A stretch of 64,000 nt of DNA from contig JAUISW010000001.1 of NCBI GenBank assembly GCA_030434875.1, forward strand, positions 879,501 to 943,500, given 5' to 3'. The stretch is from Lachnospiraceae bacterium C1.1 (GTDB lineage: Bacteria; Bacillota; Clostridia; Lachnospirales; Lachnospiraceae). The first letter of the stretch is position 1; the number at the start of each line of letters is the position of its first letter. A program made the translations under genes and the position numbers. Under the pieces are notes generated by a model. That model was not told the origin of the DNA and ran no database searches. It worked only from the letters and a program-made list of their open reading frames with translations. Shown piece by piece: positions 10,025 to 59,691 of the stretch.

Positions 10025-10712
10025 TATTAAGTTAAGAGTAAAGTTTTCAAAGCATGGTCTTATGAAGTATATAGGTCACCTTGACTGTATGAGATATTTT
10101 CAGAAGCTAATAAGACGAACAGGAGTAGATATTGCATATTCGGCAGGATTTTCTCCGCATCAGATCATGTCCTTTGCCCAGCCTCTCGGAGTTGGACTCG
10201 AGAGTGAGGGTGAGTACATGGATATCGAAGTAAGATCTGCTATGAGCTCGAAAGAAATGATCGATCAGATGAATTCGGCTCAGGCAGAGGGTATGAAGGT
10301 CGTAGATGTCGTCAGGCTTCCGGAAAAATGCGGAAACGCAATGGCCAGCGTTGCAATAGCGGAATATTTAGTATCATTCAGAGAGGATAAAAAACCTCAA
10401 TTTGATATTTCATCATCAATAGAAAAGTTTAATGCATCTGATGAGATAATCATTGAAAAAAAGACAAAGAAGGGTTCCAGAGAGCTTAACTTAAAAGAAT
10501 TCGTATATAAGATAGAAGTTAAAGATGACGAAAAAATCTTTATGAGGTTATGTGCAGGCAGCGGAACCAATATTAAACCCGGACTTGTGATCGGAGAATT
10601 ATATGCAATGAATGGAGATTCGGGTTTTGATGATGAGGATATTCTGGTGACAAGACTGGATTTATTTGATTCGGAGGGAAAGGCTCTTATAGAGGCCGGA
10701 GAACATTTTTGA
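10011..10712 (+). CDS. Radical SAM-associated DUF2344 protein, TIGR03936 type
   Basis: A protein of about 233 residues matching the DUF2344 partner of the preceding radical SAM protein (KLRVKFSKHGLMKYIGHLDCMRYFQKLIRRTG, given here only as its opening KLRVKFSKHG and later YSAGFSPHQIMSFAQPL). I chose the TTG at 10011, eight bases after GGAGGAGG; an in-frame GTG at 10002 lies too close to that site. It overlaps the upstream gene by 14 bases and the downstream RNase gene by 4. Its biochemical role is not established. Confidence 0.86.
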   Translation: MSSDNIKLRVKFSKHGLMKYIGHLDCMRYFQKLIRRTGVDIAYSAGFSPHQIMSFAQPLGVGLESEGEYMDIEVRSAMSSKEMIDQMNSAQAEGMKVVDVVRLPEKCGNAMASVAIAEYLVSFREDKKPQFDISSSIEKFNASDEIIIEKKTKKGSRELNLKEFVYKIEVKDDEKIFMRLCAGSGTNIKPGLVIGELYAMNGDSGFDDEDILVTRLDLFDSEGKALIEAGEHF

Positions 10713-11884
10713 AAAATAAATATCTGATAAGTGAATACAAGAATAAGCGCTTTTGTGCAATATATGAGGATGATATTCCGGTAGAATTCATATTTATTGA
10801 AAATTCGGATTATACTGTTGGCAGCATTTATATAGGTCATGTAGAGTCCATTATAAAAAATCTAAATGCCGCCTTTGTTGACCTTGGTAACGGAATAAAG
10901 GGATATCTGCCTTTGAAAACGCCTGACAGTGTCAAAGCCGGAACTGATATAACGGTACAGATCGAGAAAGAAGCTATAAAATCGAAAGAGATTCGACTTA
11001 CTGAAGATATTTCGATCGGAGGAAAATTTCTTGCAATTTCAAAGGGACGTCCGGGAATCGGAATCTCAAGAAAAATTTCATCTGAAGAAGTCAGAAACAG
11101 GCTGAAAAGAGCTTTTGAAGAATTTATAGAAAACGATCCTGATTTAAATAAATTTTTTGCAGGTAAGGAACACGGGATGGTTGTCCGTACTGCGGCTGCA
11201 GAGGCTGATTTTGAAGAGATAAAGACGGAGCTTGTCAGTATTGTTGATGTTTTCAGGAAAACAGTTGATTTTGCAGAAAACAGAACCTGTCATTCCTGTC
11301 TTTATAAACCTCTCGCAGAATATCTGTTAAGAATTAGGGATTCAAAGTCTGAGATAGAGAGAATAGTTACAGACCTTCCGGATATTTATGATGAATGCAG
11401 GAGTGTATTTGATGATTCGAAAGAAATAATTGATGCTTTGGCGTTATATGAAGATGAAATGTTGCCATTAATAAAGCTATACAGCATAGAAGCTGTTTTT
11501 GAAGAGGCGCTTCATAAAAAAGTATGGATGAGATCAGGAGGCTTTCTGGTAATTGAACCAACTGAAGCACTTACAGTTATAGACGTGAACAGCGGGAAGA
11601 ATATTAAAGGAAAAAATAAACAGAAACTTATTTTTGAAACAAATAAGGAGGCTGTTTATGAAACTGCAAGACAGCTCAGATTAAGAAATATTTCCGGGAT
11701 AATCATTATTGATTTTATAAATATGGCAGATGAGAATTATAAGGTAGAAATTATATCCGAAATAAAAAGAGTTTTGAAAAAAGACAGTGTTCAGACCAGG
11801 TTTATAGATTTTACACCGCTTGGCTTGGCGGAAGTTACAAGAGAAAAGATACACAGACCTCTTTGGGAAAATCTGCGGATTTAA
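10709..11884 (+). CDS. RNase E/G family ribonuclease, short form
   Basis: A 391-residue endoribonuclease of the Rne/Rng type. An S1-like RNA-binding domain lies at about residues 35-90 (GSIYIGHVESI, FVDLGNGIKGYLPL). The two catalytic metal-binding Asp residues are visible as D292 in VIDVNSGK and D335 in IIDFINM. The protein ends shortly after EVTREKIHRPLWENLRI, so it lacks the CPxC zinc-link motif and small domain that complete E. coli RNase E and G. The TTG start overlaps the upstream stop. A mobile element abuts its stop codon and the last codons form part of the target duplication. Confidence 0.88.
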   Translation: MKNKYLISEYKNKRFCAIYEDDIPVEFIFIENSDYTVGSIYIGHVESIIKNLNAAFVDLGNGIKGYLPLKTPDSVKAGTDITVQIEKEAIKSKEIRLTEDISIGGKFLAISKGRPGIGISRKISSEEVRNRLKRAFEEFIENDPDLNKFFAGKEHGMVVRTAAAEADFEEIKTELVSIVDVFRKTVDFAENRTCHSCLYKPLAEYLLRIRDSKSEIERIVTDLPDIYDECRSVFDDSKEIIDALALYEDEMLPLIKLYSIEAVFEEALHKKVWMRSGGFLVIEPTEALTVIDVNSGKNIKGKNKQKLIFETNKEAVYETARQLRLRNISGIIIIDFINMADENYKVEIISEIKRVLKKDSVQTRFIDFTPLGLAEVTREKIHRPLWENLRI

Positions 11885-12039
11885 TGTTACTGTTCACACC
11901 TTACAGGTGCTCACAGTAACTGGATTTGCCCATTTTAAGATTGCCTGCGGCAATAGGGCAAATCCATATTTCCTGTTTTATGCTGTCTTACGCTCAGCGC
12001 AGCAGGTGCGCAGAGCTGTGTGAACAGTAACGATTTAAT
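11878..12039. mobile_element. MITE-like palindromic element, copy A, with 8-bp target duplication
   Basis: The element spans 11886-12031 (146 bp). It begins with GTTACTGTTCACAC and ends with the exact reverse complement GTGTGAACAGTAAC. It is flanked by the perfect 8-bp direct repeat GATTTAAT at 11878-11885 and 12032-12039, which includes the RNase stop codon. Inside are three hairpins: CACC/GGTG near 11898, a core stem GGATTTGCCC/GGGCAAATCC, and GCGCA/TGCGC. There is no transposase gene, so it must be mobilised in trans. A second copy lies at 59537-59683 in the opposite orientation. Confidence 0.9.
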
Positions 12040-12181: not shown

Positions 12182-12487
12182 ATGTACGCAATTATTGCAA
12201 CAGGCGGAAAACAGTACAAGGTTTCGGAGGGCGATGTTATTTTCGTAGAAAAGCTCGATGCCGAGAAGGATAGTGCTGTTACGTTTGATCAGGTTCTTGC
12301 AATTGGCGGTGATAAGCTTGCAGTAGGCAGTGAAGTTGCTAATGCATCTGTTTCAGCTAAGGTTGTTGATCAGGTTAAAGGCAAAAAAGTCATTGTTTAC
12401 CACTACAAGAGAAAGACCGGCTACCACAAGAAGAATGGTCACAGACAAGCATACACAAAAGTACAGATCGAAAAGATTAACGCTTAA
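12182..12487 (+). CDS. rplU: 50S ribosomal protein L21
   Basis: A 101-residue L21 with [18 protein letters not shown] at the N-terminus and the basic [14 protein letters not shown] segment near the C-terminus. It binds 23S rRNA in the large subunit. The ATG has an optimal AGGAGGTG site. It is the first gene of the classical rplU-prp-rpmA-obg order. Confidence 0.98.
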
Positions 12488-59528: not shown

Positions 59529-59691
59529 CTTTGTTTGTTACTGTTCACAGGCAAACTGCGCACTCCGCTGCGCAGTTATGCCACAATAACTTTGACTGAA
59601 CACTGGGTTTTGCCCATTGCCGTAGGCAATCTTAAATGGCAAAACCCGTTACTGGAGCACGCTGAAAGCGTGTGAACAGTAACCTTTGTTT
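59529..59691. mobile_element. MITE-like palindromic element, copy B, with 8-bp target duplication
   Basis: The element spans 59537-59683 (147 bp). Its ends GTTACTGTTCACA and TGTGAACAGTAAC are exact reverse complements. It is flanked by the perfect 8-bp direct repeat CTTTGTTT at 59529-59536 and 59684-59691. Its reverse complement aligns with copy A along the whole length, including the core GATTGCCT-CGGCAAT stem. Different flanks on each copy with exact 8-bp duplications show two separate insertions. It occupies most of the 334-bp gap between two genes; the remainder, 59692-59803, holds only a TATAAT at 59745. Confidence 0.92.

Follow-up and report, generated by a model that had tools for sequence, protein, structure and literature searches.

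The 64,000 nucleotides of Lachnospiraceae bacterium C1.1 DNA analysed here (the window) hold two copies of a short element with inverted ends. Each is flanked by an 8-bp direct repeat and neither carries a transposase. This raises the questions of what moves such an element and of what keeps the arms of its hairpins complementary. The best explanation as a whole, to which we give a probability of about 0.8, is that of a MITE moved in trans by an ISBst12-like transposase of the IS66 type, with stems that would be kept paired by template switching between their arms.

Two copies in the window

The features of the two copies are collected in Table 1. As stated in the original prediction, copy A has exactly complementary 14-bp inverted ends within an exact 8-bp duplication, and copy B, when aligned to A, proves to lie in the opposite orientation and to have a different duplication of its own. 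The left end of copy B, GTTACTGTTCACAG, matches the terminal 14-mer at 13 of 14 positions, and its right end is exact. Copies A and B represent two subfamilies, with 118 of 155 aligned columns identical. With at most 2 mismatches allowed, the terminal 14-mer has four matches in the window against 0.16 expected, a number reached in none of 100 shuffles. No ORF of 90 aa or more lies over either copy in the list of window ORFs. The stop codon (TAA, 11882-11884) of the ORF upstream of copy A is inside the left duplication, and the protein product is therefore unchanged. What goes beyond the original prediction is the split into subfamilies A and B, the arrangement of three hairpins, the cassettes in the loops and the IS4-family elements nested in the MITE.

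Table 1. Coordinates of the MITE copies and neighbouring ORFs (window positions), of the accessory ORF and of the IS4-family copies
Feature	Position	Strand	Remarks
ORF upstream of copy A	10709..11884	+	391 aa; putatively RNase E/G-like, by reading of the sequence
Left target duplication of copy A	11878..11885		GATTTAAT
MITE copy A	11886..12031	+	subfamily A, 146 bp
Left terminal repeat of copy A	11886..11899		GTTACTGTTCACAC
Left hairpin of copy A	11886..11920		GTTAC...GTAAC; 5' arm is the terminal repeat; alternative to end-end pairing
Central hairpin of copy A	11921..11966		TGGATTTGCCC...GGGCAAATCCA; loop is the site of cassette u1 in longer copies
Right hairpin of copy A	11992..12016		GCTCAGCGCA...TGCGCAGAGC; loop is the site of cassette u2 in longer copies
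Right terminal repeat of copy A	12018..12031		exact reverse complement of the left one
Right target duplication of copy A	12032..12039		GATTTAAT
ORF downstream of copy A	12182..12487	+	101 aa; putatively ribosomal protein L21 (rplU), by reading of the sequence
Left target duplication of copy B	59529..59536		CTTTGTTT
MITE copy B	59537..59683	-	subfamily B, 147 bp; orientation opposite to copy A
Right target duplication of copy B	59684..59691		CTTTGTTT
Conserved accessory ORF, ~98-104 aa	L184 2132-2443, L218 1801-2094, L168 1716-2009 (minus strand)		
IS4-family copies, L293-L301	C1: 1061803, 1065508, 1299999, 1808164, 5512; elsewhere 1157453, 3535346, 3061382		

Copy number, mobility and insertion sites

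In the host genome (4.23 Mb, 3 contigs) the terminal 12-mer GTTACTGTTCAC has 79 exact matches in the forward and 78 in the reverse direction, as compared with 2 and 0 for its reversed control. Contig C1 ends with the sequence with which it starts, so that a few of them appear twice in these counts; over the 3092-bp stretch compared, all 3092 bases agree. The assembly is probably circular with an overlap left untrimmed, which involves the first and last ~13.8 kb of C1 (L168, L180) and makes the copy counts slightly too high. Among the 145 genomes searched, the host genome included, 27 contain the 13-bp end of the MITE.

At least 61 distinct complete copies are present in the host genome. The 8-bp duplication is exact in 49, has one mismatch in five and three to six mismatches in seven; a first extraction had given exact duplications in 35 of 41 copies. 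The 45 rows from relatives, which include at least four chance pairs, have exact duplications in 29 cases and one mismatch in seven. These sets (41, 45 and 61) comprise the copies in the loci examined and are no census of the genomes. The sequence of copy A recurs with 100% identity in three other copies, each of the four sites having its own exact 8-bp duplication. In a genome of the same species (G145), two hits match the flanks of copy A, one at 100% and the other at 97% identity. Their overlap is exactly 8 bp, so that a single GATTTAAT is left, and this is therefore an empty copy A site. The empty site and the 49 exact duplications bear out the earlier claim that an element devoid of transposase has moved in recent history.

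Insertions inside ORFs of at least 120 aa are rare: 1 of 40 tested lies there, whereas random positions drawn from these loci fall within such ORFs in 1543 of 2000 cases. Copies without loop cassettes measure 146-147 bp and those with them 196-265 bp. The element is a MITE, being short, free of a transposase ORF, bounded by inverted ends, flanked by a duplication of constant 8 bp and present in multiple copies, and the family is real and recently mobile. MITEs also occur in close tandem (L016, L019), where the duplication of one overlaps the end of its neighbour, and two copies in the relatives' set are only 6 bp apart.

A candidate driver of the IS66 type

The original prediction had named IS66, ISL3, ISAs1 and IS1595 as families that could drive the element. 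Judging from the ends and the duplication length, the choice narrows to IS66, and within it to a divergent ISBst12-like group. When these 145 genomes were searched for IS66 transposases, 45 gave a match, and weak, divergent matches adjoin MITE-type ends. Relatives contain the full-length insertion sequence sharing the ends that had been suggested as a search target: elements of ~2.2 kb, bounded left and right by GTTACTGTTCAC-type ends (GTTACTGTTCA), that code for a divergent IS66-family transposase. Exact 8-bp duplications flank the full-length elements L142 (GTTCATTT) and L149 (AGAGGATT), both of the same genus; L140 and L146 have none. Pfam PF03050 is found above its cut-off in seven of seven driver-type transposases (E 4.5e-11 to 6.8e-21). 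All seven fall below the cut-off of the NCBIfam IS66 equivalog NF033517 (101.7-173.2 bits, cut-off 180), and this divergent group is therefore labelled IS66-type. The invariant residues of these proteins include D296, D346 and E469.

A scan of named genomes kept 80 transposase loci. With at most one mismatch, and on the correct side in the correct orientation, the end motif occurs upstream in 52 and downstream in 51 of the 80, and 64 of them have it on one side or both; the wrong orientation is seen at 4 and 2 loci, and reversed and complement controls gave 0. Both ends are found in 34 loci; many loci stop at contig edges. Fifteen of these two-ended elements have exact 8-bp duplications and 19 have none, the end pair with the fewest duplication mismatches having been taken where a choice existed. 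Canonical IS66 loci, by comparison, have a MITE-type end of any kind in 2 of 28 cases. In Muricomes intestini, the subfamily B 14-mers (...CACAC and ...CACAG) make up two ends that lie on separate contigs; both adjoin ATTGTATT and presumably belong to one element. Single end matches in relatives (L073, L079, L080, L097, L101) were treated as chance because they have no partner end with a duplication.

According to its description (PMC12898284), ISDge4, of the ISBst12 group of the IS66 family, has ends comparable to these (GTGACTACTCAGCA / GTAACTGCTCAGCA), an 8-bp direct repeat and an IS66-type DDE transposase in one large ORF, as the driver-type elements do. Within the ISBst12 group, the comparison of sequences covered the published ends of ISDge4. 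The full-length relatives differ from that group in a further, conserved ORF of ~98-104 aa that precedes the transposase in 9 of 15 elements, as read by eye, and for this reason they are called ISBst12-like and not plain ISBst12. The product of this accessory ORF has weak, coiled-coil-like matches in Pfam and NCBIfam, none of them convincing. The MITE lacks any such ORF and has only the terminal ~12-14 bp in common with the full-length elements, the subterminal sequence being different.

The host genome has a 752-bp remnant of such an element (L168 1423-2174; a second listing stems from the contig overlap) with ends GTTACTGTTCAG and a truncated transposase (N-terminus). Its accessory ORF is intact (98 aa, 48% identical to that of L184), and the remnant has no 8-bp duplication. 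Searching with the transposase alignment gave matches in 21 of the 145 genomes and no intact transposase of the ISBst12-like group in the host genome. Seven MITE-bearing relatives, among them the same-species genome and G033 with 50 end matches, also had no match to this alignment; six of them are drafts, 75-89% complete. The source of the recent insertions would therefore have been lost from the host genome or escaped sampling there.

On this sequence evidence, the MITE is most likely mobilised in trans by an ISBst12-like IS66-type transposase. As a non-coding, non-autonomous element it would have its 12-14 bp ends recognised by the enzyme of this divergent IS66 group, which would insert it mostly into intergenic DNA and duplicate 8 bp of target. 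A driver is thus proposed for a family of MITEs that occurs in Muricomes as well as throughout one genus of Lachnospiraceae-type bacteria, and a little-studied IS66 group is linked to MITEs. In one relative (L155, G031) a MITE end and the end of an IS66-type element are 10 bp apart.

Alternatively, another resident transposase might move the MITE. Recent insertions require some source, and canonical IS66, IS6-like and IS4-family elements are all present in the host genome, where the ISBst12-like one is only a remnant. These three were the resident families examined; IS6 was included for its 8-bp duplications and a partial likeness of its ends. All three were rejected as drivers. The locus of the single canonical IS66 element (L116) has no match to GTTACTGTTCAC within 2 mismatches, and no 13/14 inverted repeat was found around the element. 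The ends of the IS6-like element (PF13610; L103) start with GGTAGTGTCAAA, unlike those of the MITE. The IS4-family element has other ends as well; seven of its eight copies are flanked by 10-bp duplications, and it is itself nested within MITEs. A driver from among these families thus appears quite improbable, and the ISBst12-like transposase is the preferred candidate. The IS6-like element, present in three copies (C1:1693711 and two more places), has an unusually long ORF of 483 aa.

Three hairpins

The body of the MITE is a set of three DNA hairpins. Both strands of copies A and B fold far better than shuffled sequences (z -6.4 to -7.9), none of 200 shuffles being as good in any of the cases. 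The RNA fold of copy A pairs its two ends together, and the left hairpin forms in other copies. The structure alignment comprises 22 representatives chosen from 65 MITE rows of 144-148 bp; they come from the host genome, Muricomes and eight further genomes of the genus, with window copy A substituted for L019:1708-1853. In this set 213 of the 220 pairs of the central stem are intact, and the stem ends sharply at column 11, which is paired in 0 of 22. Double-sided changes occur at columns 5-10 of its 10 columns and are confined to the Muricomes copy at columns 5 and 6.

Pairing in the central stem amounts to 0.968, as against a mean of 0.851 and a maximum of 0.905 in arm-swapped controls; the right stem (12 columns) reaches 0.754 against 0.648 and 0.723, respectively. 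None of 1000 swaps attains the observed value in either stem, but the representatives are related by descent, so that this control is not fully independent. There are whole sequence groups in which several columns of the right arm do not pair. Applied to the MAFFT alignment, RNAalifold gives a weak consensus of 26 pairs, three of them with double changes, since the central stem is displaced by gap columns; the stems were then anchored by script.

Proposed conversion of hairpin arms

A few copies have altered arms. In L367, which has exact duplications, complementarity in the right-hand hairpin extends over 42 positions with 41 pairs, as compared with 15 positions and 14 pairs in its sibling L366. 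In L362 the left hairpin is now perfect over 16 pairs. One extra base perfects the u1 stem in L362, L365 and L370, a change that could have run in either direction. Rewriting of a whole arm is the expected trace of template switching in a quasipalindrome. The two clear copies suggest that template switching on DNA has made one arm exactly complementary to the other. From these few altered copies it would appear that the stems remain paired mainly through such quasipalindrome conversion.

The covariation of the stems across the 22 representatives lends itself to another interpretation, namely that the three hairpins are kept for a function of the transcript, such as processing, termination or mRNA stability, and that the compensatory changes reflect selection on RNA. 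Functions of this kind have been proposed for other bacterial MITEs. The fold scores of both strands of both window copies speak for it, and 39 of the 40 tested insertions lie outside ORFs of at least 120 aa, often beside genes. However, the two strands fold about equally well, an Rfam search of the window gave no match, and one-step conversions of whole arms are a mutational source of the same pattern. A transcript function is a possibility to which we give distinctly less than even odds. Arm conversion is a source of covariation besides selection on RNA, and such selection could still hold the stems. Should the stems owe their pairing to arm conversion, a functional RNA need not lie behind compensatory base changes in repeated DNA hairpins, which would bear on the inference of structured RNAs. 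The MITE copies form a natural series in which the conversion of hairpin arms is measurable.

Cassettes in the loops

What sets the copies of 196/197, 201 and 250/251 bp apart from the short ones is u1, which occupies the central loop and has a net length of 54 bp, and u2, which occupies the right loop and measures 50 bp. The u1 core has 32 matches in the genome and the u2 core 26, all of them exact and none with 1-3 mismatches. Once the contig overlap is removed, 30 distinct places remain for u1 and 25 for u2, all in the context of MITE stems and each in the same loop. Twenty-one of the 30 u1 units are identical, six differ at one site and three (L362, L365, L370) are length variants, which the copy-count script, working without indels, did not count as u1. 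Twenty-four u2 units are identical and the remaining one is the converted L367. The subfamily B bodies around the cassettes differ on average by 2.3% (u1) and 3.0% (u2), as calculated for the commonest body length only. Since u1 and u2 occupy the same loops in A and B, the cassettes are common to both subfamilies, and they are less variable than their surroundings.

That the same loops are occupied in both subfamilies could mean that u1 and u2 are mobile palindromic units which insert into hairpin loops. Copies in G039 and G014 have a different right-arm cassette, which shares a core of the ACTAAGC/ACTATGC...GCTAAGT type. Yet every place in the host genome, 30 of 30 for u1 and 25 of 25 for u2, is in a MITE stem and always in the same loop, and the sharing is explained by recombination or gene conversion via the identical bases around the loops. 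No solo u1 or u2 was found in the host genome, and cassettes that are mobile genome-wide were rejected for this reason; independent mobility seems unlikely. A reading advanced tentatively is that of a self-correcting hairpin array, the arms of which would stay complementary mainly via template switching on DNA, not RNA selection, and the two loops of which would serve as docking places that gain and exchange cassettes. Subfamilies that differ in about one quarter of their bases would therefore bear the same cassettes in the same loops.

Relation to known repeats

Pneumococcal BOX, Neisseria NEMIS and enterobacterial ERIC, modular or structured small repeats, are likewise scattered between genes, vary in size and form stem-loops. 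The MITE resembles them by description and differs from them in sequence and host. No description of the family was found in the open-licence papers searched. Prokaryotic MITEs in general are presented in a review (PMC10969869) as short, non-coding, intergenic elements with inverted ends, direct repeats and predicted stem-loops that are moved in trans by a related IS; the term IS66 is absent from its text. The present element has the same features, short non-coding intergenic sequence, inverted ends, direct repeats and stem-loops, and is set apart by its three-hairpin body, loop cassettes and arm conversion. It is thus a new MITE family of a known kind, the unusual feature of which is the evolution of its hairpins.

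An IS4-family element nested in the MITE

Some MITEs have themselves become targets. An IS4-family element of 1734 bp, with a 443-aa transposase and ends CAATGTCAGTAAGTTAA, is present in eight distinct full copies (Table 1). Five of them are at the same 10 bp inside the MITE terminal repeat and three elsewhere. Seven have the 10-bp duplication, and the eighth copy (L300) is flanked by two different MITE-end sequences, as if two IS4-family insertions had recombined.

IS231A, also of the IS4 family, inserts into the ends of Tn4430 and thus prefers the terminal repeats of an unrelated transposon. The 1734-bp element behaves likewise, except that its target is a MITE of dozens of copies. Near one MITE that holds the IS4-family element, a four-base tandem repeat (L063 628-870) reads as a long TDRQ run.
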